Source of the DNA: Phycisphaerales bacterium
Lineage (GTDB): Bacteria > Planctomycetota > Phycisphaerae > UBA1845 > Fen-1342
Length of the DNA: 34,373 nt
Direction: 5' to 3'
Assembly: GCA_003162245.1 (NCBI GenBank)
Contig: PMMM01000176.1
Location: forward strand, 1 to 34,373
Position numbers and translations under genes: made by a program. The first letter of the stretch is position 1; each line of letters starts with the position of its first letter. The notes under the pieces are model-generated. The model was not told where the DNA came from and did no database searches. It saw only the letters and a program-made list of their open reading frames with translations. Positions 11,091 through 23,130 of the stretch are shown piece after piece.

Positions 11091-14000
11091 TTACGGCAGA
11101 CACGTCGTGCCGATCACGGCCACGAACGGGTCGATGTCCACGAAGTTCACCGTGCCGGTGTTATTGCAGTCGGCGTTGATCCACGGGCACGGCCAGTGCG
11201 TCCAGGCCGACTCGCCGGACAGGGCGGCGACGAACAGGTCGATGTCCACGAAGGTCACGCGACCGTCGCAGTTCATGTCGCCCTTGCACGACGCCGGGCA
11301 CCTGTTCCCAGGCGCGCGGCAAGCAGTGCCATTGCCGTAGTAGTGACCGCCGGCGCCCGTGCAGGCCGCCTGCGTGATCACCGAACAGACGCCGGTGGTG
11401 GAGCAGCAGGCACCGGTGACGACGGCACACGGATTCGGATCGCAATCCGTGTCGTCACCCTTGTACGTTCCGCCTGCATCCACGCACTGGTTCTGCTCGG
11501 TGATGTAGCACTCCGCACCGGCGCAGCAGGCGCCGGTCTTCTGGAGCAGAATTCGCATGCGGATCGGCCTGGTCAGGTCGACGATCGGCGAGGACACGTA
11601 GCCGACGCTCGCGGTCGTCAGGCGGATCCAGCGGCTGGCCGTGGTGTCCTTGAAGAACCACGAGACCAGGTCGGACTGACTGCTGCTATACCCGTACGGA
11701 GCCACCGTGCTGCTGCTCGGCGGATACGACAGGTTGGCGCTGGTCGTGCCCGAGTACGTCGGCTCCTGGAACATGACTTCGGAGCCGAGCGCGTAACCCT
11801 CGAACCCGTTCGCCAGCAGTGCGTCAGTGCCACCGGGGCCGGCGCCGACGTTCACGATCTCGTCCACGTACATGTAGTACGTGCCCGAGCTGCGGCCTGC
11901 CGACAGGTTGTCCGCGGTGATCGCGATGTGCTCCAGCACGCCCTTGGTGGCGGTGATGATGCCGTCGCCGCCGCCGCCCGGCATGGCCTTAACCTTGTCG
12001 ACGTTCGGATCGTTGCACACGAACGTGAAGGTCTGCCAGCCGGCCGCCGGGGTCAGGGCCTTGCCCCAGGGCTGGGAGGCGCTGTTCGGATCGGCGATGC
12101 CGACCCACTCGATCGCGCCGGTGCCGGTACCGGTCTGGCCCGGCAGGCCGGGGTCGTTCGTCTCGCGGACGCCGATGCAAATCCGCAGGTCGCCGTTGCC
12201 CTTGCCAACTTCCAACTTCGGACCCACGTCGGATGTACCGTAACCGGTCGTGGTCTTGGCCATGATCATGTCTCCGGCCACCAGCGGCGTGACCGGCACG
12301 TCATACGTGCTGGCGCCGCCCGGGTTGGCCGTGCCGATCGCGGCGGCGTTCGGATCGTTGGCGTAGACCGCCACGTTGGTCGCGCCCGGCTCGATGTTGG
12401 CCAGCGCCACGAGCGTGTCGTCCGCCATCACGGGGCTGACGATACCCGCCCCATTCGGCATGCGCGGCTCGATGATGACCTTGCCCTTTCCGAGGCTGTA
12501 GTCGTCATACCAGCCTTCCAGGGTCGCGGCATACCCGGAACCGATGTAGAGGTTGTTCATCGCGTTGCCGCCCCAGGCGATGTTCTTCCGGGCCAGGACG
12601 CCATCCACGTAGAAGTCGCAGTAGGTGTAGGGGGCGTACTTGCCTACCACGGTAAACGTGTGCCAGCCGATGGTACGCGTCGGGGTGCCCGGCCGGTCGA
12701 GGTTAACGTAGCCGATGCCACTGCCGTTGCCAACGATCACGCGTCCGCTGTAATAGTTATTGTCAAGACCCGAGGAGAAGAACGAGCTGCCCGGCATGCC
12801 CACGGCAAAGAGGCCGTTCAGCGTGGAGTCGGAGGTGTAGTTGCGGGCCTCCGCCCACTGGTACATGTTGTCCACGCCGGGGCCGCCGGAATCGTAGATA
12901 TTCACGTTCCAAACGAGGGGCTGCGACCACGAACCCATGAAGTCGCCCCAGCTCGTCGGGGTCGCATAGTAGGTGTCGAACATACCCTGGTAACCGTTGT
13001 TCCAGCCGACCTCGGTGTCGTTCGCGCCCGGATAGAGGACCGGGTCAAGAGTGGCCGTCTGGCCAGCCGGGACGTACGCCGATTTCGAACCGCCCGGCGT
13101 CGCATTCTTCTGCTTGCCGGGGTACGTCGCTGGGAAGTTCGCATCGCCGGTCCAGAACGGGGCGGGATCTTTCGACGAAAGCCACCAGCCCTGGTTGGCC
13201 TTCACGAGCGGATAGCGCTGGTTCTCGAAGTTGTTGCCGCAGCCCTTCTGGCAGGCGTAGGATTCCATCGTATCGGGCCACGGCGCCGGGCCAAATTGGG
13301 TCAGGCTGGCCTCGGTGATCGGGTCGCCGATCGAATACACACTCTCGACGCCCGCGTACACCTGGCTGGCCCTGACGCCGCCGCCCGCTACCATGGGCGG
13401 GATTCCCGTGACGACTACCACGCTCGGATTCCCGCCACCCGGGGTGGCCGAGTACATGGTTGCCGACCCAACGTTCGGATCGGGGTACACATAGACGCGC
13501 ACCGCCGAGGCGCCCGGGATGACGTCCAGGATCGTGACGCTCGTGTCGCCCGCCGCCGGGGCCATGTAGATCGTCGGCGACGGCGTGGCGACGACGACGG
13601 CGGTCGACGCCGCGCTCGTTACGCCGTTCACCGTCTGCGTCGCGGTCACAGAATATCCGGCGGTCAGCGCCGCCACCGTGACGGTGGTGGACGAAACCGG
13701 GTTGTTCGGGTCGAGCGCCTGCGGCACGGTCTGCGTAAGCGCGCCGTTTGGATCGCGCACATACACCGTCACCGCCGACGCCGAGGCGTACGGCACCGTG
13801 GTCAGCCCGCCGACGGTCACCTGCGTCGCGGTCGGAATGATCGGCGACACGACGGTCGGCTTCGGCGTGTAGGCCAGCGCGGCCTTCGGATAGGCGAAAT
13901 CACTGGTCACGCCGCTGATCACCTGCTTGGCCGAAACGGACTGGCCGCTCGTCAGGGTCAGGCCGGTAAAGTCCACGTACGTCGCGCCGTTGGGGTTGAT

Positions 14001-16124
14001 GGGCGCGCCCGATTGGATGCCGTTAATGAACAGGTAGACGTTCGACGCATAGCCGCGGCAGTTGATGCGAATCGCCGTCTGCGTGCCCGCGATAATCGGG
14101 GACGTGACGGTCGGCAGCGGAATGGTCGGCTGCGTCAGCAAGCCGCGGGACAGGACGTGGAACCGCATCCACCCATCGGTCTTGTTCACATGCCCGCTGC
14201 GCGTGGCGCAAGTTTGCCCTTCCGACGTGCGGCGCTCGAGGAAACCGATGCTGTTAGCGGTGACGAAATCGCTGAAGTACCACACGAAACGCTGGCTATA
14301 CGTGCCGTCGTACGCCGCGTTCGAGGATATGCCGGCCACCGTGTACGTCGTCGAGGGGCTCTGGCCACGGAGCCCGGTAATCCGGGACAGGCCGTCCTCA
14401 AAGTCGAAGATGATCCCCGTAACGTTGCCGTTCGGGTCCACGTCCTCGACGCGGTCGACGTACACTTCATTAGTCTTGGTGCTGCCCACATAGTTCGGGT
14501 CCGCGGCCGTGAACCACCACGAGTCCCACGTGTAGAACGTCGTGACACTGATGTTCGGGTCCAGGATGCCGTTGCCGTACCCCATGGCGTTCTGGACGAG
14601 CGCCGGGTTCGTCATCGGAATGTCGAGGGTCTGCCACACCGCGTCGTTCGGCAGAATGTTCATGCCCACCGGCCGAACGTTGCCCGTGCCGCTCGACGTG
14701 GCTGCGACAAACTCCCAGTTCGCAGCCGTGCAGCTTCCGTTGCCCGCTTCGTCGAGCACGGTGCAGAACGTGTACGGCGGCGGCCCGGACAGCACCACCA
14801 CCGGCACCGAGGACGCACTCCACGTGCCGTCCTCATGGTTCTGCTGTTGGGCGGTAATCACCTCGCCGGTGTTCAGCGTCGGCGAAGCCGTGAACGCGTG
14901 GGATGCCGGGTGCTGGGCCGGATCCGCGTTGTTGGGATCTGGGTTGGTCCACGTCTCCATCAGCGTGGCGCCCTTGTACCAGCGCACGGCCCGGCACCAG
15001 TACATCAACTTCTGCACTGTCACCGTGCTCGCGCCCTGCACCAGCGGCGCCGCCACTTCCGGCGGCAGGGTCGGATCAACCGCCGGAGCTTCGAATTTCA
15101 GCTCGTCGATCGCGAGGCTGTCCGCGAGTCCCCCGAGATCGGCATCCTTGTCTTTCGTGAATGCCAGGTGCTCGAGTACGCCGCGATTGTTGGGCGCGCT
15201 CAGCACGCCGTCGCCGGTGAAGCCGGCAAACCCGCCCCGATCGTTGGGGTCCACGTACCAGCTAGTGTTGGGGGGCGTGACGTTGCCCGTGGCCAGGTCG
15301 AACACAATGGGCACCGGGAACAACACGTTCCCCGGCACCGTGACCACCGGAATGGGCCGGCGCACGTTGGCGATCGGGTCAACGTCGAAACCGGAACGAT
15401 ACTGGTCGTCGCCGGCCGGCACGGTGTCAATCTTGCCGTTGGGGCCGGGGCCGATGACGGCGGTGGCGATGTCGATGTTGGGATCCATCACCGTGTTGAG
15501 GGCGTAGATCTGCACATCGTCGCCCGACGCCGTCGTGTTGACGACGCGGTCGGCCCCCGCGGTGATGGCGTTGCGCTTGCTGCTCACGCCCACCCACTCG
15601 ATCGTGCCGGCAGTGCCGCCGTCGTCCATCTGCGCTACGTTGGTCCCCGTTTCGCGAATCCCCAGGCAGAGGCCGAACTTGGCATACGGGTCCCAGCCGC
15701 TCAGGTTGCCAATCATAAAGCGGACTTTGCCTTGCAGGTGCAGGGACGGGTTCGGCTCACCCGTGCTGTTGAACGTAATGAGGCGTACCCAGGCGAAGTT
15801 CGGGTCGCCCGCTATGTTGGGGTCCGTGTTCCAGGTGAAGAAAACCTGCTCCGCCGCCGCACCTTCGCTTTGCAGCCCCGAGGCTCGGAACGCGCCGTTG
15901 AGGTCCCAGTCGGTCACGTTCGGCAAAATGTACATGGCGGTCGACCCGGAGAGCGCCGGGTACCGGAACATCTCCGCACAGGGCGAGGGCGGACTACAGT
16001 CGATCGGCGGGCCGTTGAAGAGGATCGGCTTGGACTCGAAGTAGCCCGGGGTCCAAGCCAGCGCCGATAGCGGTGCCGCGGCCGCCACGACGAGGAGCAG
16101 GGCCATACGCGTGAGTCGGGTCAT
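11091..16124 (-). CDS. Giant secreted multidomain protein with Ig-like repeats, Cys-rich repeats and dockerin-like C-terminus
   Basis: The 1677-aa product starts with a Sec signal peptide (about 1-24, 'LLLVVAAAAPLSALA'). Two related segments near residues 315 and 1395 ('GVLEHLAF', 'GVLEHIAI') lie within lectin/LamG-like sequence. Ig-like repeats opening 'P.V.SPI' or similar and containing 'V.VY' begin near 675, 756, 851 and 1226. Two Cys-rich repeats (about 1526-1605) each start TGACC and carry six conserved Cys. The C-terminus (1613-1677) has two dockerin-like loops, 'GDMNCDGRVTFVDIDLFVAA' and 'ADCNNTGTVNFVDIDPFVAV'. The tripeptide DPN occurs 15 times. GGAGG is 8 nt before ATG 16122-16124, and the signal peptide fixes that start. 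It is probably a surface or matrix protein; no catalytic domain is recognisable. Confidence 0.88.
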   Translation of the reverse strand: MTRLTRMALLLVVAAAAPLSALAWTPGYFESKPILFNGPPIDCSPPSPCAEMFRYPALSGSTAMYILPNVTDWDLNGAFRASGLQSEGAAAEQVFFTWNTDPNIAGDPNFAWVRLITFNSTGEPNPSLHLQGKVRFMIGNLSGWDPYAKFGLCLGIRETGTNVAQMDDGGTAGTIEWVGVSSKRNAITAGADRVVNTTASGDDVQIYALNTVMDPNIDIATAVIGPGPNGKIDTVPAGDDQYRSGFDVDPIANVRRPIPVVTVPGNVLFPVPIVFDLATGNVTPPNTSWYVDPNDRGGFAGFTGDGVLSAPNNRGVLEHLAFTKDKDADLGGLADSLAIDELKFEAPAVDPTLPPEVAAPLVQGASTVTVQKLMYWCRAVRWYKGATLMETWTNPDPNNADPAQHPASHAFTASPTLNTGEVITAQQQNHEDGTWSASSVPVVVLSGPPPYTFCTVLDEAGNGSCTAANWEFVAATSSGTGNVRPVGMNILPNDAVWQTLDIPMTNPALVQNAMGYGNGILDPNISVTTFYTWDSWWFTAADPNYVGSTKTNEVYVDRVEDVDPNGNVTGIIFDFEDGLSRITGLRGQSPSTTYTVAGISSNAAYDGTYSQRFVWYFSDFVTANSIGFLERRTSEGQTCATRSGHVNKTDGWMRFHVLSRGLLTQPTIPLPTVTSPIIAGTQTAIRINCRGYASNVYLFINGIQSGAPINPNGATYVDFTGLTLTSGQSVSAKQVISGVTSDFAYPKAALAYTPKPTVVSPIIPTATQVTVGGLTTVPYASASAVTVYVRDPNGALTQTVPQALDPNNPVSSTTVTVAALTAGYSVTATQTVNGVTSAASTAVVVATPSPTIYMAPAAGDTSVTILDVIPGASAVRVYVYPDPNVGSATMYSATPGGGNPSVVVVTGIPPMVAGGGVRASQVYAGVESVYSIGDPITEASLTQFGPAPWPDTMESYACQKGCGNNFENQRYPLVKANQGWWLSSKDPAPFWTGDANFPATYPGKQKNATPGGSKSAYVPAGQTATLDPVLYPGANDTEVGWNNGYQGMFDTYYATPTSWGDFMGSWSQPLVWNVNIYDSGGPGVDNMYQWAEARNYTSDSTLNGLFAVGMPGSSFFSSGLDNNYYSGRVIVGNGSGIGYVNLDRPGTPTRTIGWHTFTVVGKYAPYTYCDFYVDGVLARKNIAWGGNAMNNLYIGSGYAATLEGWYDDYSLGKGKVIIEPRMPNGAGIVSPVMADDTLVALANIEPGATNVAVYANDPNAAAIGTANPGGASTYDVPVTPLVAGDMIMAKTTTGYGTSDVGPKLEVGKGNGDLRICIGVRETNDPGLPGQTGTGTGAIEWVGIADPNSASQPWGKALTPAAGWQTFTFVCNDPNVDKVKAMPGGGGDGIITATKGVLEHIAITADNLSAGRSSGTYYMYVDEIVNVGAGPGGTDALLANGFEGYALGSEVMFQEPTYSGTTSANLSYPPSSSTVAPYGYSSSQSDLVSWFFKDTTASRWIRLTTASVGYVSSPIVDLTRPIRMRILLQKTGACCAGAECYITEQNQCVDAGGTYKGDDTDCDPNPCAVVTGACCSTTGVCSVITQAACTGAGGHYYGNGTACRAPGNRCPASCKGDMNCDGRVTFVDIDLFVAALSGESAWTHWPCPWINADCNNTGTVNFVDIDPFVAVIGTTCLP

Positions 16125-16276
16125 CACAAGAACCTCCAATAAGTGGTTGTCCCGGCGCGTCGGGCGCCACAATCCACATCGCGTGCCGACGGCCTTGAAG
16201 CTGTACACATCCCGGCGGTCACGTGCTCGCGGGCCGGACGCCCGCACCGCGGTGGGCCGCCACTCTTTATAGGAAC

Positions 16277-16316
16277 GACGCTCCGCCCCGTCGCGGTACG
16301 GACGAAGCGGAGCGTC
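16277..16316 (-). terminator. Putative hairpin terminator after the PEP-CTERM gene
   Basis: A perfect 10-bp inverted repeat (16277-16286 with 16307-16316) encloses a 20-nt loop that can form a further 4-bp stem (CCGT/ACGG). It lies about 105 nt past the PEP-CTERM stop codon and about 150 nt before the start of the giant gene. The T-tract is weak in both directions, so termination is plausible but unproven. Confidence 0.42.
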
Positions 16317-16421
16317 TTATCTCTATCGTCGCGAAGCCAACGTTACTGTAATTCACGCTGTTCACGGGCCACAACCGTGCCCCCTGGGCCGTGCCCCACT
16401 TCGCTCGCGTTCCAACCAATC

Positions 16422-17162
16422 CTAACGCCGCCGGAGCAAGAGACCCAGCGCCAAGAGCGCCAGGCCCGCGGGCTCGGGGGTCGTCTGGAGCAGCACATCG
16501 TCGATGTACGCGTCGTTCGTGGACGTGACGCCGCCATTCAGCCGCATCTGCTCAAACGAAACGGTGGCGGTGCCAGACAAGTACGCCACGCCGGCCTTGG
16601 ACAGCAGGCCGTCGACGTAATAGTCGATGGTGGTCGACTTGATGACCGCCTTCAACTCGTGCCAGCCGACCGACCGCGTACTGGCGCCTGGGTCGTTAAG
16701 CAAGAACCAGCCTGGGGCGGTGCCGCCACCCGGCATGAACGCCACACGGGCGCTGTAGTACGTGTTGGACTGGCCCGGCGCCGTGTTGTAGACGCCCATC
16801 TGCAGGTTCTGGTTCGTCGTCGGCGCATAGTCCATCAACTGCGCGTAGTTGCGGTTGGCATAGATCACCGAGTCGTAGAACTTGAAGCTCCACTCCAGCG
16901 GCTGCGCGTCAGAGCCCGAGGTCTCCGCGAACGTCTTGTAATTGTTGTTCGTCGCCGGCGTCTTCGCGTAGAAAACGGAGTGCGTCGGGCTGGACGCCTG
17001 CGCGGTGCTCCATGCACCGCTTAACCCGGCCGTCACCGGCGGCCAAGCGGACTCGAACTGGGCTTGACTGGTGTAGGACTCGAAGTCGTCCTGGACGATG
17101 ACGGCACCGGACGCCGCCGACGCCAAAGCGACCACGAAACTCAACGCCACAAGTGTTCTCAT
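16422..17162 (-). CDS. Secreted PEP-CTERM-like protein with lectin-like domain
   Basis: A 246-aa protein with a Sec signal peptide (1-20, 'ALASAASGA'), then 'VIVQDDFESYTSQAQFE', the opening common to planctomycete LamG/concanavalin-like secreted proteins. The body has alternating beta-strand character ('LEWSFKFYDS', 'GWHELKAVI', 'IDYYVDGLL', 'DAYIDDVLL'). The C-terminus is a sorting tail: PEP, a hydrophobic helix (AGLALLALGLLL) and RRR, as used by exosortase systems. No exosortase lies in the window. ATG 17160-17162 follows a GGAGGAG tract. Several phrases ('GWH', 'YVDG') also occur in the giant protein downstream, so they share a lectin-like module. Ligand unknown. Confidence 0.85.
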   Translation of the reverse strand: MRTLVALSFVVALASAASGAVIVQDDFESYTSQAQFESAWPPVTAGLSGAWSTAQASSPTHSVFYAKTPATNNNYKTFAETSGSDAQPLEWSFKFYDSVIYANRNYAQLMDYAPTTNQNLQMGVYNTAPGQSNTYYSARVAFMPGGGTAPGWFLLNDPGASTRSVGWHELKAVIKSTTIDYYVDGLLSKAGVAYLSGTATVSFEQMRLNGGVTSTNDAYIDDVLLQTTPEPAGLALLALGLLLRRR

Positions 17163-17415
17163 ACCTTGATCTCCTCCTCTTCTTTCCCGGAAGCTGCAGC
17201 CGCGTCTCGGCTCCTCGCTCCTGTCCGATGACCGGCCAACTCCCGATTGCCTGAGACTTGAACCTCCAACCACATCACGGGCGGACAGCCCGCCCGCTGC
17301 TCACTCTCCTCAGCACGCGAGAATCAGCGCAATAGCGCATCCTTCCCGACTCGCCCGCGCGCCCACGCACGGGAGCGCCGCACCCCATCCAGGGCCTCCT
17401 ACCTCCACGCCGGTC

Positions 17416-17445
17416 AGTATAACCCCCACGACCGGCGCGGTACAA
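17416..17445 (-). promoter_or_regulatory. Putative promoter of the PEP-CTERM gene
   Basis: TTGTAC (17440-17445) and TATACT (17416-17421) on the minus strand are 18 nt apart. The start would fall near 17409, giving a leader of roughly 250 nt. An AT-rich stretch upstream could act as an UP element. The TATACT box is shared with the tilS and rplK promoters. Confidence 0.5.
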
Positions 17446-17696
17446 GCGAATTTTGACGCAAAGCGAATTAAAAGCGCGGCGGGCGGTTTGAAGCGACCCG
17501 GGGCATGGTTTTGCGCGTCCGATAACCGCCAAGGCGCGCGCCGCGGTCACGGTGCCAGCGCCCCTTCCGCCGACCGCGCCGGCCACGCGGTCGCACCGCC
17601 GAACTCGCGCTACGACCGCCAGCGACACAGATGCATCCCACACCCGGCGGACAATGCCGCGGCGCGCGCCATTACGGCCCGAGCTCGAGATTCACG

Positions 17697-17724
17697 TTCT
17701 GAAGCGGGCCGAAAATGCTATGAT
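17697..17724 (+). promoter_or_regulatory. Putative promoter of the DUF187/GHL10 gene
   Basis: TATGAT (17719-17724) matches five of six -10 bases. TTCTGA (17697-17702), 16 nt upstream, is a weak -35. The transcript would start about 100 nt before the ATG. Confidence 0.32.
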
Positions 17725-17829
17725 GGAGTCATCGTCGCGCGACGGGCATCGAGCCCGAGCCGGGCTTGGCCACGCGTTGCGCGTTTATGCGCTGGAATGC
17801 GGTATCCCGCACAACAAGGAACCCACCCG

Positions 17830-20199
17830 ATGAAGACAGGTCCCCGACTCTGTACCGTCACGGCGTGGATCGTCGCGCTCGGATTGTCCGGCGCGGGAAC
17901 CACCGCGGCCCTCGCCCAGACGGTCGTCGTCGACAACAGCGATTCCGGCTTCACTGTCCTTTCGCAGACGTGGACAACCGGCACGTCGGCGGCGGGACAC
18001 TACGGGGCCGATTACCGCTACCGCAACACGACCGGGTTCGACGGCTCGCCGGCGGGCGAGGTCGAATGGCGGCCCAATCTGCCGCAAGCCGGCACCTATC
18101 AGGTCGCGATCTACTATCCGGCCGGCACGAACCGCGCAAACAACGCGCCGTTCACAGTCCACTACGCCTCCGGCTCGCAGACGCTTGCCGTCAACCAGCA
18201 GGCCGGCGGCGGGCAATGGAACGTGCTCGGCAGCTTCGCGTTCAACGCCGGTACCGGCGGGTCCGTCTCACTGAGCAGCAACGCCAACGCGAGCGTGGTG
18301 ATCGCGGACGCGGTGCAGTTCACGCTAGCGTCGTCGACGGTGAACCTGACGATGGCTGTGAGCTCGACCGGCTGGGGCACGACGACCCCCGCTGTGGGCG
18401 GCCCGTACACCAAAACGCTGAACGACGTCGTGCCGATCACCGCCAGCGCCGTCGCGGGCTATACCTTCCACCACTGGGAAGTGTCCGCCGGCTCGGCCGT
18501 CGCCAGCCCGTCCTCGGCCAGCACGACTGTCACCATGGATCAAAGCAAGACCGTCACGGCCGTGTTCGTGACGGCGGGCAGCGATCCACCCGAGTTCCGC
18601 GGCTTCTGGGCCGACGCGTTTGCGAGCGGCTTCAAGAGCACCGCCCAGATCGACACGATGATCAACCTGGCGCTCGCCGGCAACTACAACGCCATCGTGC
18701 CGGAAGTCCTCGCCTTCCAAGACACGGCCGGCGGCGGACACGGCGCGTACTGGGATTCGAATATCGTGCCGATGGCGACGGACATCGTCGGGGGCATCGA
18801 CCCGCTGGCCTACATGGTGCAACAAGCCCACGCCCACGGCCTCCAGGTCCACTGCTGGATGGTGGCATTCCGCGTCTCAGCCACCTGGCCGCCCGCCGGC
18901 AACCCCACGGTCGCCGCTCATCCGGAGTGGCTGATGGTGCCGCGCGCGAATCTGGGCACTATCGCGAAGGTCGGCGGGAGCAGCGGGTACTACACGTTCG
19001 ACGCCGGCTCCCCCGGCACGCAGTCCTACCTGATGAGCATCGTCCGCGAGCTGTGCGACAACTACGCGATCGACGGCATCCACTGGGATTACATCCGCTA
19101 CACGCAGACCGACGCCGGCTATCCCGCGGTCTCGAGCTACGCCGACTCCTCGCTCCATCGCTATCAGCGGATCTACGGTCTCGACCCCAACTACGTGCCC
19201 GACCCCAACTCGCCGCCGGCGTCGTGGAACGATTTCCGCCGCCGGACCGTCACCGAGGTCGTCCGGCGCGGCATGTTCGAGATGGCCACCTCGCCGAACG
19301 TCCGCCAGCCGCTGTGCCACAGCATCGCGGGCGTGACGTGGTATCCCGCGAACAGCAACTTTCATTTGACCGGCGCCTACTCGCTGTTTAGCGACTGGGA
19401 ATACTGGCAAGCGATGGGCTACATCGACGCCACCATCCCGATGGCGTATTTCGACGAGCAAGGCTCCTACACGGCCACGTACCGCGCCTGGGTGAACAAC
19501 TCGATCGCGTGGGCGAACAACTCCAATCGCTACTGCTACATCGGCCCCGGTATCTACCTGAACAGTTTTGCGGACAGCAAGACGCAGATACTCTACGCCC
19601 GCAACGCCGGCGCCGATGGCATCAACACGTATTCGTACGCCGGCACCAACGACACCGGCGCAACGTGGTCCGACTGGTATCCGTACGCTGCCAGTAACTT
19701 CTTCCTCCAGCCGGCCCCCGTCCCCACGATGCCATGGCGCGATCCGAACCTCGCGACCGAGGGCTACGTCTACGGCCGCGTCACCAACGGCGCTACCGGT
19801 CTTCCCATCGACAATGTCACGATCAAGATCAACGGCGTCGGCGGCCCGCAGACCGATGGCGACGGCTACTACATGGCGTCACACCTCACGGCTGCCGCCG
19901 CCGGCACGACTTACTCGATTGCGGCGTCCTACACCGGCTACACCGATGCGACTCGCCCGGCCGTGCTGACCGAGCGCGCCGGTTTCACGGAGGCGAACTT
20001 CGCGCTGGGCACCTGGCTCCAAGGGGATTACGACGTGGACGCTCACGTCGACGCCGACGACTTCCTGCACCTCGTTCCCGACTTAACGGGGCCGAACATC
20101 GGCCCCCCGCCGCCCGGCGGCGACCTGTTCGACTTCGACGTCGACAACGACGTCGACCTGCGCGATGTCGCCGTGTTCCAGAGGTCGTTTACCGGATAG
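17830..20199 (+). CDS. Secreted modular DUF187/GHL10-type glycoside hydrolase-like protein with dockerin-like tail
   Basis: A 789-aa protein in five parts. Signal peptide: about 1-30. Golvesin/xanthan-lyase-type beta domain: about 32-165, with 'VVDNSDSGFTV' and 'VVIADAVQF'. Divergent InlB-type repeat: about 180-247, with 'GYTFHHWEV' and 'TVTAVF'. DUF187/GHL10-type TIM-barrel region: about 255-620, with 'EFRGFWADAF', 'AHGLQVHCWMVAFR', 'IDGIHWDYIRY' and 'IPMAYFDE'. Carboxypeptidase-regulatory-like domain: about 640-715. The last 60 residues hold two acidic dockerin-like loops ('GDYDVDAHVDADDFLHLV' and 'DVDNDVDLRDVAVFQRSF'). Related GHL10 proteins act on surface or peptidoglycan-linked glycans; the substrate here is unknown. 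Asp and Tyr in 'HWDYIRY' sit at a barrel-strand end and are candidate catalytic residues. AAGGA is 9 nt before the ATG, and the signal peptide supports that start over an earlier one. Confidence 0.88.
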   Translation: MKTGPRLCTVTAWIVALGLSGAGTTAALAQTVVVDNSDSGFTVLSQTWTTGTSAAGHYGADYRYRNTTGFDGSPAGEVEWRPNLPQAGTYQVAIYYPAGTNRANNAPFTVHYASGSQTLAVNQQAGGGQWNVLGSFAFNAGTGGSVSLSSNANASVVIADAVQFTLASSTVNLTMAVSSTGWGTTTPAVGGPYTKTLNDVVPITASAVAGYTFHHWEVSAGSAVASPSSASTTVTMDQSKTVTAVFVTAGSDPPEFRGFWADAFASGFKSTAQIDTMINLALAGNYNAIVPEVLAFQDTAGGGHGAYWDSNIVPMATDIVGGIDPLAYMVQQAHAHGLQVHCWMVAFRVSATWPPAGNPTVAAHPEWLMVPRANLGTIAKVGGSSGYYTFDAGSPGTQSYLMSIVRELCDNYAIDGIHWDYIRYTQTDAGYPAVSSYADSSLHRYQRIYGLDPNYVPDPNSPPASWNDFRRRTVTEVVRRGMFEMATSPNVRQPLCHSIAGVTWYPANSNFHLTGAYSLFSDWEYWQAMGYIDATIPMAYFDEQGSYTATYRAWVNNSIAWANNSNRYCYIGPGIYLNSFADSKTQILYARNAGADGINTYSYAGTNDTGATWSDWYPYAASNFFLQPAPVPTMPWRDPNLATEGYVYGRVTNGATGLPIDNVTIKINGVGGPQTDGDGYYMASHLTAAAAGTTYSIAASYTGYTDATRPAVLTERAGFTEANFALGTWLQGDYDVDAHVDADDFLHLVPDLTGPNIGPPPPGGDLFDFDVDNDVDLRDVAVFQRSFTG

Positions 20200-20235
20200 G
20201 AGCGCTCGACAGCGCCGGTTCAGGGAAAATGTCTG

Positions 20236-20264
20236 TGTACACTCTGTTCCCGAACCGGTAATAT
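20236..20264 (+). promoter_or_regulatory. Putative promoter of the dockerin protein/pseudopilin unit
   Basis: TGTACA (20236-20241) and TAATAT (20259-20264) are 17 nt apart, each matching four of six consensus bases, in the only AT-rich spot of this intergenic region. The overlapping TATAAA at 20262 is an alternative -10. The start would be about 65 nt before the ATG. Confidence 0.4.
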
Positions 20265-20335
20265 AAAGTAGGAAGGATGTCGGACGCTCCGCCGCGCCGG
20301 CGGAGTCCGAGGACCGACCCCAGGGAGGACAGGTC

Positions 20336-22162
20336 ATGTGTGTGCGCGAGCCGATGCGGCGGGACGCTCCGGTACTCCTATGGCCGTTGCTTGGCCTCTT
20401 GGCCGCCGCCGGTCTGGCGTCGGCACAGGTGGCCGCCGGCGGCGAACGGGCGGTGACCATCACCGTCACGGCGCCCAACGGCGGGGAAACCTGGGCCGCT
20501 GGGACACAGCACGCCATCACCTGGACGGGTTCCGGGGGAATCTTCTTGGGCACGCCCGTGGCGATCACCTTGCTGCGCGGCGGCGTGCCCTATGCGCCAA
20601 TCGCCAGCCTGTCTTTCCTCAGCAGCGGCTCGTTCACCTGGACGGTCTGCGAACACCTGGGCGACGGCGCCGACTACCAGGTCCGCGTCGCGTGCATCGG
20701 CTGCGATCCGCCGGCCCAGGACGACAGCGACGCACCGTTCACAATCACGAACTCGCCGTTGCCGACCTTCGCGCTGACCAGCCCCAACGGTACGGAAATC
20801 TGGGCTGCCGGCGACACGCGCACGATCACCTGGGATTCCATCAACCCGCACGGCTACATCGCGGCGTGGCTGTGCCTGGGCGCGCAGCGGTGGTTCATCG
20901 GCGAGAAGCCGATGGCGGACGGCCAACTCGTGTGGGACATCGACCCGTTCGTCCCAGGCGGTAGCGGGTACACGGTCCGGCTGCAGTGGCTGGATACCTG
21001 CGGACCGGTCCTCGAGGACTACAGCGACGCTCCGTTCCAGATCGTCGCCGCGCAGCCGCTGCCGACATTGGCGATCACTAGCCCCAACGGCGGCGAAGCC
21101 TGGGCGGCAGACACGACGCAGACGATCACGTGGGCGAGCACGAACCCCGCCGGCGACGTGGAGCTCTGGCTGACGGACGGCCAATCGCGGTACCAATACG
21201 TGGGCTCGGCCGCGATGGCCGACGGGCAGCTCACATGGCCGGTTTCACCCTGCGTCGGCGACGCGAACAACGTCGTCATTCTGGCGCGCTGGGCCGCGCA
21301 GGCGGCCAGCGTCGAGGACACGAGCGACGGCGTCTTCCAGATCGCTGGCTCCTCAACGCCGGCCTTCACGGTGACCAGCCCTCTACCCGGCGAAATCTGG
21401 ACAGCGGGCACACAGCGCACGATCACTTGGACCGGCAACGTCGCCAACGGGGAGGTCGATGTGGAGCTTCTGAAAGCTGGGACGCACTACGTCCACCTCG
21501 GGCACGTACCCGCCGCGGCCGGCAGCTTCATCTGGGATATCTGCCCGGCCGTCGGGGATGACCCCAACTATACCATCCGACTGCGCATGGGCGCGTGCGG
21601 CGCGGAGGGGGTCAGCGGGTCCTTTGCGGTCACCGGCTCCGTCACGCCGACGCTCACGCTCATCAGCCCGGTAGGCGGCGAGACGTGGATCGCCGGTACG
21701 CCGCGGACGATTACGTGGACCAGCTCGGGGCTCGCCGGCTTCCTCGACGTGTACGTGCCGAATGCGGGCGTCCACGACTCGGGCCACGCGGTGGTGCCGG
21801 TGACAGCCGGGAGCTTCGAGTGGCCGATACCGCCGCCCCTCGTCTGGCCGCCGCCGAGCGCAACAACCGACGCGGGCGGCGTGTGGCTCTGGTCGTACGA
21901 CTGCGGGCCGAGCGTCTACCAGCGCGGGGCGCAGTTCCAGATCGTGCCGGGAAGTGCGCTGCCCGGCGACATCGACGGCGATAACGACGTAGACCTTGCC
22001 GATCTGGCAGCGTTCCAGGCGCACTACACGGGCCGTGGTCCGCTGCTGATCGACCCGGTCTACGATTTCTTCGATTTCGAGCCCGATGCGGACGTGGACA
22101 TCGACGACTTCGGCGTAATGGCCGGCGTGCTCACCGGTCCGGGCGAGGAGGTGCAGCCATGA
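20336..22162 (+). CDS. Secreted protein with five Kre9/Knh1-like (Ser-Thr-rich anchored family) repeats and dockerin-like C-terminus
   Basis: The 608-aa product has a Sec signal peptide (about 1-30). Five beta-sandwich repeats of about 90-100 residues follow, each opening with a variant of 'SPNGGE.W.AGT..TITW' (for example 'APNGGETWAAGTQHAITW', 'SPVGGETWIAGTPRTITW'). This is the signature of the Kre9/Knh1 or Ser-Thr-rich membrane-anchored domain. The C-terminus carries dockerin-like loops ('GDIDGDNDVDLADLAAFQAH' and 'DADVDIDDFGVMAGV'). The family is usually structural or carbohydrate-binding, with no enzymatic motif here. GGAGG lies 7 nt before ATG 20336. The stop overlaps the next gene's start (ATGA), so the pseudopilin-like protein is translationally coupled to it. 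Confidence 0.88.
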   Translation: MCVREPMRRDAPVLLWPLLGLLAAAGLASAQVAAGGERAVTITVTAPNGGETWAAGTQHAITWTGSGGIFLGTPVAITLLRGGVPYAPIASLSFLSSGSFTWTVCEHLGDGADYQVRVACIGCDPPAQDDSDAPFTITNSPLPTFALTSPNGTEIWAAGDTRTITWDSINPHGYIAAWLCLGAQRWFIGEKPMADGQLVWDIDPFVPGGSGYTVRLQWLDTCGPVLEDYSDAPFQIVAAQPLPTLAITSPNGGEAWAADTTQTITWASTNPAGDVELWLTDGQSRYQYVGSAAMADGQLTWPVSPCVGDANNVVILARWAAQAASVEDTSDGVFQIAGSSTPAFTVTSPLPGEIWTAGTQRTITWTGNVANGEVDVELLKAGTHYVHLGHVPAAAGSFIWDICPAVGDDPNYTIRLRMGACGAEGVSGSFAVTGSVTPTLTLISPVGGETWIAGTPRTITWTSSGLAGFLDVYVPNAGVHDSGHAVVPVTAGSFEWPIPPPLVWPPPSATTDAGGVWLWSYDCGPSVYQRGAQFQIVPGSALPGDIDGDNDVDLADLAAFQAHYTGRGPLLIDPVYDFFDFEPDADVDIDDFGVMAGVLTGPGEEVQP

Positions 22163-23130
22163 AGCGCGGACACGTACGAACTCTGACGCTCACCGAAGTC
22201 CTGGCGGCAGGCGCGGCCGTGGGGCTCCTGTTCACCCTGACCGTCCCCGCGCTGCACGCCGGCGGCGGCCGCAATCGGTCCGACGTGTGCCTGGGCAACC
22301 TCGAGGCGTTGGGTCTGGCCGTGCGGATGTACGCGGAGGACCAAGGCACTTTGCCCGGGCGTCTGCATCCGGCCGTGAGTCACTTTCCCCCTGACCCCAA
22401 CGATCCATTCACCAACTACGGACGCAATCGGATTCTTATCTGGAAGCTGCGCGCGGTGCTGGGCGAAGGCATTACGGACCGTCTGGCGACCTGCCCGGTG
22501 GCGGAGGGAATCAACCCAGACTCGAACTTCGCAGCGTTCTATTCCTTGACGAGCAGGCTCGTGTATCCCGCACACTATGTGGTGAACAACTGGGGCAGCA
22601 TAGGCGAACAGAGCGGCGTCAGCGACAACGTACGTGCGACGCGGCCCCAATACTATTTCGGGTACAGCCCGCCCCCCGGGTCCGGCACTGATCCGGTTCA
22701 GTTGCAGGCGATGGTCGACTATCCGGTGCAGCCGTTGGGCAAGATCCTGAGGGCCGCCGAAGAATGGATGATCGCCGACGCGTGGTATCGACCGAAGAGC
22801 GGCGCACCGGAGCTTCAGCAGGAGGGGCCATACCAGACGTCGTGGAGCGGCGAGGCGCTGCCGAACTTCGCCCCGCACCAGCGGCGGGACACGGGCGGCT
22901 ACACGTATACATCCAGTCTCAGTCGCAATTCTGACTCGGCGGCGATTCGATCGCGAAAATCGGACGGCGTCACGAACACGGTCTTCTTCGACGGGCACGC
23001 GGCCCCCGTTCCGTCGAAGTCGTTCGTGCTCTATGCGACCGACATTCTCTATGGCTTCCCCGGCACGGTGAACCCGCTGATGCAGTCGCCGCCGCCGACT
23101 AGCGTGTACTGGCGGGCCATCTGGCGCTGA
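22159..23130 (+). CDS. Pseudopilin-like protein with degenerate prepilin cleavage site
   Basis: This 323-aa protein begins with a short basic leader and 'RTLTLTEVLAAGAAVGLLFTLTVPAL', the plan of a type IV prepilin N-terminus. The canonical G|FTLIE is changed: Thr8 replaces the -1 Gly, Leu9 replaces the +1 Phe, and Glu13 keeps the +5 position. Sequence such as 'NLEALGLAVRMYAEDQGTLPG' and the late 'NTVFFDGHAAPVP' are typical of the large planctomycete family of pseudopilin-like proteins with an H-X9-DG C-terminus (DUF1559-like). It is a probable membrane-anchored or secretion-linked partner of the upstream dockerin protein, which it overlaps by 4 nt. Whether the signal is processed is open. Confidence 0.82.
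   Translation: MKRGHVRTLTLTEVLAAGAAVGLLFTLTVPALHAGGGRNRSDVCLGNLEALGLAVRMYAEDQGTLPGRLHPAVSHFPPDPNDPFTNYGRNRILIWKLRAVLGEGITDRLATCPVAEGINPDSNFAAFYSLTSRLVYPAHYVVNNWGSIGEQSGVSDNVRATRPQYYFGYSPPPGSGTDPVQLQAMVDYPVQPLGKILRAAEEWMIADAWYRPKSGAPELQQEGPYQTSWSGEALPNFAPHQRRDTGGYTYTSSLSRNSDSAAIRSRKSDGVTNTVFFDGHAAPVPSKSFVLYATDILYGFPGTVNPLMQSPPPTSVYWRAIWR

Follow-up and report, generated by a model that had tools for sequence, protein, structure and literature searches.

Analysis of contig PMMM01000176.1 from a Phycisphaerales bacterium (assembly GCA_003162245.1), whose 34,373 nucleotides are the window studied here, revealed that the tripeptide Asp-Pro-Asn (DPN) is about ten times over-represented in the exported proteins of this genome and much less so elsewhere. 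The genome of the window is labelled G000; other G numbers denote relatives. In G000, DPN has built up as a separate unit of three residues, above all in large exported proteins bearing a dockerin. A giant exported protein of 1,677 amino acids, encoded on the minus strand of the window from position 16124 down to 11091, contains DPN 15 times, against 0.45 copies expected from its composition and a maximum of 4 in 2,000 shuffles. The next commonest tripeptides of this protein occur five times each. These counts agree with a preliminary description of the window, which had reported 15 copies where fewer than one was expected.

DPN excess in exported proteins

The G000 assembly comprises 4.76 Mb in 264 contigs, and 638 kb (13% of the genome) were sampled. 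A first set of 434 kb, including the window, consisted of contigs known from sequence matches, and a second set of 20 contigs (204 kb) was taken by number (C1-C21 minus C14). Genes were called by a simple script that chose open reading frames by codon likelihood. A protein was called exported, also by a simple script, when its N-terminal part had a hydrophobic stretch with cleavage-like residues or when its C-terminus resembled a dockerin; the class rules were not identical between individual counts.

All tripeptides were counted by export class. The 141 exported proteins (69,002 residues) contained 105 DPN against 10.1 expected (10.4-fold), distributed over 38 proteins, and DPN was the first of all tripeptides by z-score in both G000 samples. 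The excess in secreted proteins that had been proposed for the window is thus borne out in the larger sample. In the second set alone, 24 DPN were found against 2.6 expected, again at rank 1. Within-protein shuffles of the exported set gave a mean of 10.6 copies and a maximum of 22 (200 runs), with 9.5 DPN-carrying proteins on average (maximum 17); an artefact of composition was rejected because the shuffles fell far below the observed values. After removal of all proteins with at least five DPN, 44 copies were still present against 8.8 expected. The 15 exported proteins with a dockerin-like end held 59 DPN (3.5 expected), and the other 126 held 46 (6.9 expected). The tripeptide occurred 18 times in 230 non-exported proteins (2.8-fold) and three times in 52 membrane proteins (2.9-fold). 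Part of the 2.8-fold value is due to misclassified exported proteins, several of the 18 copies being, as we read the sequences, in proteins with a membrane anchor or a pilin-like start.

Variation among relatives

Sampled exported proteins contained 33 DPN in G003 (9.9-fold, rank 1) and 40 in G001, a relative in the same genus as G000 (13.5-fold, both samples); relatives of the giant or other matches lay at the centre of the first sample from G001 and of part of that from G003. Counts were 8 in G014 (5.7-fold, in two proteins), 12 in G013 (4.4-fold), 3 in G032 (2.9-fold), 4 in G030 (2.6-fold), 4 in G015 (2.0-fold) and 1 in G024 (0.8-fold). The relatives of the giant, which are best matches rather than proven orthologs and include frames truncated at the ends of contigs or loci, contained 20 DPN in G001, 19 in G003, 8 each in G002 and G013, 4 each in G006 and G008, 2 each in G005 and G033, 1 each in G014 and G015, and none in G016, G020, G021, G024 and G053. 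The relatives in G033 and G053 match only the last part of the giant.

For each genome, the number of copies of the DPN word GAYCCNAAY was divided by that of the NPD pattern, after subtraction of the copies belonging to the giant's relative itself. The NPD pattern replaced a reversed-pattern control, by which G013 had appeared extreme; by NPD its ratio is 1.06. The DPN density of the giant and its 15 relatives correlated with this ratio (rho 0.81, 0 of 4,002 permutations, 16 genomes). The ratio of G000, 1.95, was the highest among 61 relatives (median 0.79), followed by G030 (1.94), G022 (1.71), G001 (1.65) and G009 (1.62). It was also the highest among 159 genomes drawn from the phylum, where G076 came next with 1.59. 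The level of DPN is mainly a trait of the genome as a whole.

In a tree of 20 relatives of the giant, DPN-rich members stood in separate places. A single clade of the giant's relatives from G000, G001, G002 and G003 was rejected by the approximately unbiased test (p-AU 0.0004), as was one of G000, G001 and G003 (p-AU 0.0014); the trait itself was used to define the groups in these tests, some branchings are weak, and horizontal gene transfer is possible. In the family of the giant, the branches with high DPN do not make up a single clade.

Some further observations were made on these genomes. In G030, a genome of 9.3 Mb from another family, GAYCCNAAY occurs 2,013 times and the NPD pattern 1,040 times, and a 169-kb sample held 8 in-frame DPN; with so few in the sample, the copies are probably elsewhere in the genome. 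In G009, a genome of about 20 contigs, the word is skewed between strands (168 forward, 288 reverse), suggesting that one or a few proteins are very rich in DPN. A relative of the giant is also carried by L218, labelled Alphaproteobacteria, a contig that is possibly wrongly binned.

Specificity for Asp-Pro-Asn

In the exported proteins of G000, near-equivalent turns were close to expectation (NPD 1.8-fold, NPN 1.6-fold, DPD 1.5-fold, DPS 0.8-fold and DPG 0.7-fold), so that other strong turn triplets are not enriched alongside DPN. Relative to expectation, Asn is enriched 7.4-fold after Asp-Pro, Asp 6.7-fold before Pro-Asn, and Pro 5.3-fold within Asp-X-Asn. The same three ratios were 1.7, 2.0 and 1.6 in a pool of four DPN-poor genomes (G015, G024, G030 and G032; 117 exported proteins, 49,904 residues), which held 12 DPN in exported proteins against 5.8 expected. 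The single-substitution neighbours of DPN had a median of 0.92. The largest exceptions were DCN (13-fold), attributed to the Cys-rich dockerin-like region, DMN (3.8-fold, 9 copies) and DPF (3.0-fold).

Ten residues on each side were compared for 177 exported DPN sites from G000, G001 and G003. Biases were mild, the largest being Trp at position -2 (3.1-fold, 11 of 177 sites), followed by Pro (2.7-fold) or Thr (1.9-fold) two residues after and Asp (1.9-fold) one residue after the tripeptide. The DPN core is fixed and its flanks are nearly free.

Loop placement and origin of the sites

The giant has a signal-like N-terminus, tandem Ig/FnIII-like domains, Cys-rich repeats and a dockerin-like C-terminus. 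A structure search with it matched only Ig/FnIII-like arrays, with low template-modelling scores across the whole chain. Its DPN sites, all on the minus strand, are at residues 101 (15816-15824), 107 (15798-15806), 214 (15477-15485), 292 (15243-15251, adjoining a gap in the aligned relatives except L010), 396 (14931-14939), 522 (14553-14561), 542 (14493-14501), 563 (14430-14438), 791 (13746-13754), 805 (13704-13712, within an inserted segment), 882 (13473-13481), 1257 (12348-12356), 1345 (12084-12092), 1372 (12003-12011) and 1562 (11433-11441, inside the Cys-rich repeats). At residues 791, 882 and 1257, DPN follows a V.VY stretch, as the preliminary description had noticed.

The sites were mapped onto a predicted structure, a check that had been suggested together with the original observation. 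The model covers the first 1,014 residues of the giant (18 sequences; mean predicted local distance difference test score [pLDDT] 73, predicted template-modelling score 0.54). Ten of the 11 sites in this part lie outside strands (41% for tripeptides in general), and nine are fully coil (26 of 53 among other Pro-centred triplets). The site at residue 882, which follows a V.VY strand, is the only one with a strand-labelled (bridge) residue. The sites at residues 563 and 791, the latter following a V.VY strand, form five-residue hairpin loops. Three modelled sites, in two loops, have a pLDDT under 50. The DPN sites are thus predicted to lie in loops.

Comparison with relatives indicated how individual sites had appeared. 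In the protein L038:3-1787, which we take to be zinc-carboxypeptidase-like and which has no NCBIfam match, DPN is an exact three-residue insertion in G000 and G001, with a gap in the 11 other sequences of the 13 aligned. Other copies are substitutions, as in RIDPNTP for RLTPDTP and WRDPN for WRDPA, WRDPE or WRDPT. Of the 33 DPN residues in the modelled part of the giant (its first 1,014 residues), 8 fall in inserted columns, defined as columns absent from most DPN-poor relatives, against 5% of all residues; the corresponding values are 7 of 39 in G001 (4% of all residues), 4 of 42 in G003 (2.5%), 6 of 21 in G002 (2.3%) and 0 of 12 in G008. DPN sites therefore arose both by substitution and by short insertion, and the earlier suggestion of an insertion element fixed at the protein level applies to some clean insertions but not to the other sites. 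A comparison of the giants of G000 and G001 showed exact conservation for 4 of 11 sites; for another 5, a DPN lies no more than eight columns away, in one case belonging to a neighbouring site.

Other DPN carriers and neighbouring genes of the window

Three further proteins of the window carry DPN, in the numbers originally reported. The exported GHL10 (DUF187-type) protein (17797-20199, plus strand) has three copies. Two of them, at 19183-19191 and 19201-19209, lie in the same loop, which is extended only in G000 and G001 among nine genomes aligned. The third (19741-19749) arose by substitution, WRDPN standing where six of eight relatives have WRDP[ATE] and the other two have WRNPA and WRYAA. 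One copy (21560-21568) is found in an exported protein with Kre9/KNH Ig-like repeats (20336-22162, plus strand), described before as a five-repeat dockerin protein, and one (22393-22401) in a pseudopilin-like protein (22159-23130, plus strand) that matches the GspG model below its cut-off. The remaining 17 of 21 called genes have none, in line with the reported absence from cytoplasmic proteins. Of the 11 genes called exported in the window, 7 are without DPN, and apart from the giant this class has 5 copies in 4,099 residues, so the excess in the window is mainly due to the giant.

The Cys-rich repeat and dockerin-like C-terminus of the giant (11091-11550, minus strand) accounts for most of the 121 places in G000 that match the giant. 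The copies are sometimes in tandem and reach 85% identity, the giant itself excluded. This region may be an undescribed sorting tag, since it is barely matched by Pfam Dockerin_1 (E value 0.089, below the cut-off) and unmatched by NCBIfam. Beside the giant, a small protein without DPN (16422-17168, minus strand) shows a weak PEP-CTERM match below the cut-off and matches residues 1100-1251 of the giant's 1,718-residue frame with 33% identity.

Proposed explanation and alternatives

Our preferred, though tentative, reading is that DPN is a putative short linear site, read by a trans-acting factor that encounters exported proteins. DPN has traits resembling those of a sequon, namely, an excess in exported proteins, a fixed core with nearly free flanks, and sites in loops according to the strand and coil labels of the model. 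The factor would most likely modify or bind Asp-Pro-Asn in exposed turns, and new sites would be favoured wherever a loop tolerates them. If any tolerant loop serves, the number of sites would matter more than their position, and sites would be gained and lost between genera. Where the factor is lacking, a genome would retain only an approximately twofold background preference.

Several observations weigh against a factor-recognized site. The by-number sample of G001 contained only 3 DPN in 6,855 exported residues (3.9-fold, rank 206). G030 has a genome ratio like that of G000, yet its 169-kb sample reached only the 2.6-fold excess in exported proteins given above. In G013, DPD is enriched 3.5-fold beside the 4.4-fold DPN, a pattern closer to a general preference for acidic turns. 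At a few flanking positions there is a mild enrichment of Asp and Asn (1.8- to 2.7-fold), as at any loop or metal site. The conservation of sites between G000 and G001 does not separate number from place. Finally, no factor was found: three candidate families were searched in 61 genomes, and none tracks the trait. The best match to the oligosaccharyltransferase STT3 was under the cut-off in G000 (21.7 bits, cut-off 24.5) and in G001, and none was obtained in G003, G009, G022 and G030. Legumain-type C13 peptidases had no match in the six DPN-rich genomes G000, G001, G003, G009, G022 and G030. The search for an Asp/Asn hydroxylase was uninformative, as no match was obtained in any genome, controls included.

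The main rival is a purely structural one, in which the lineage's exported proteins of Ig-like, beta-helix or similar type simply favour DPN as a beta-turn or loop cap, a habit created by drift and selection for stability with no factor involved. We consider this possible but rather doubtful. It explains the location of the sites, which in the model lie in loops and often directly after a strand, but neither the specificity nor the change from genome to genome. It also agrees with the mild excess in the non-exported proteins of most sampled genomes (1.3- to 3.8-fold; in G001, 5.8-fold in the biased sample and 0.6-fold in the by-number sample), with the twofold excess that DPN-poor genomes still show in exported proteins, and with the mild over-representation of aromatic residues, Asp and Asn in the flanks. 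From a turn or calcium element of a generic kind, however, one would also expect a rise in DPD, DPS, DPG, NPD or NPN, and their values of 0.7- to 1.8-fold speak against it. Of the calcium or turn element that the preliminary description had envisaged, the placement in turns therefore stands, but not its generic form. Moreover, relatives of the giant in DPN-poor genomes (L193, L194, L195, L197, L200 and others) have no DPN at all, and the DPN level follows the genome. The Asx-Pro/beta-turn motif likewise resembles DPN in fitting a turn and lying in loops, but the specificity for Asn after Asp-Pro and the variation between genomes would not be expected of a turn.

A role as a metal ligand is improbable. 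Asp and Asn are common calcium ligands, and those of DPN in paired loops could bind calcium and stiffen long exported proteins; the presence of dockerin-bearing multidomain proteins among the carriers and the Asp and Asn in the flanks are consistent with this. DPD would serve equally well, but it is only 1.5-fold enriched, and no flanking position is strongly fixed. Cleavage at or after DPN by an exported peptidase, or spontaneous breakage, has a similarly low probability; a processing mark was among the readings offered in the preliminary description. Asp-Pro bonds are acid labile, and the sites lie in predicted loops, but at least 15 cuts would presumably destroy the giant. In addition, Asp-Pro outside DPN is near expectation (229 Asp-Pro, including 64 DPN, against 173.5 expected in an exported class), and a legumain-type peptidase was rejected on the C13 result above.

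A cause at the DNA level, such as a word related to uptake, recombination or restriction or a spreading 9-base insert, is very unlikely. The word is short and very common, and some copies are clean 9-base insertions, but among 112 copies of GAYCCNAAY in the first G000 set, 94 were in frame in called genes, with 5 copies in another sense frame, 6 on the antisense strand and 7 between genes. At the 105 exported sites, 12 of the 16 synonymous 9-mers were used, in agreement with the codon variation noted earlier. The share of GAT among Asp codons was 0.43 in DPN, 0.39 at other Asp-Pro and 0.21 at other Asp. Since the word is mostly in frame and its Asp codon choice is that of other Asp-Pro sites, a DNA-level word was rejected, and the cause of the excess acts on the protein and not on the DNA. 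DNA uptake sequences are short words over-represented genome-wide that leave a tripeptide in proteins; the DPN word shares the over-representation but differs in keeping mostly to one reading frame and in its synonymous variation. Duplicated domains each carrying one DPN, an alternative that had been named at the outset and to which the three V.VY turns of the giant might point, are scarcely credible as the main cause and were rejected, because 174 of the 177 contexts are unique and 38 different exported proteins carry the tripeptide.

Likeness to known systems

Two glycosylation systems invite comparison with a DPN-recognizing factor. The sequon of N-linked glycosylation by STT3/PglB is N-X-S/T, and it shares with DPN an Asn in exported proteins. 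N-X-S/T continued from DPN at only 32 of 177 sites, against 23.5 expected, and this system was rejected on that count and on the STT3 score in G000. The motif of general O-glycosylation in Bacteroidota has free flanks and occurs in many kinds of exported proteins. It is given as (D)(S/T)(A/I/L/V/M/T) (PMC8550257). Like DPN, it comprises three residues and starts with Asp; it differs in its Ser/Thr acceptor, which DPN lacks, in belonging to another phylum, and in that DPN has no known glycan or enzyme. It was rejected, as D[ST][AILVMT] was not enriched in the sample (166 copies against 231 expected). No description of a proteome-wide DPN excess was found in the titles and abstract openings of the literature searched.

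Implications

Should DPN prove to be a site of modification or recognition, its users among the exported proteins, and the relatives that do without it, could be told from the genome alone. This would offer a clean comparison for an enzyme hunt and a way to spot other such motifs in uncultured phyla. Even a purely structural DPN would call for an explanation, as a bias in loop evolution of unusual strength and specificity. It is conceivable, though we hold it with considerable reserve, that the exported proteins of Phycisphaerae are subject to an undescribed general system of modification or recognition whose minimal site, DPN, rose independently in several genera. Its genomic signature would be the ten-fold excess of a single tripeptide.

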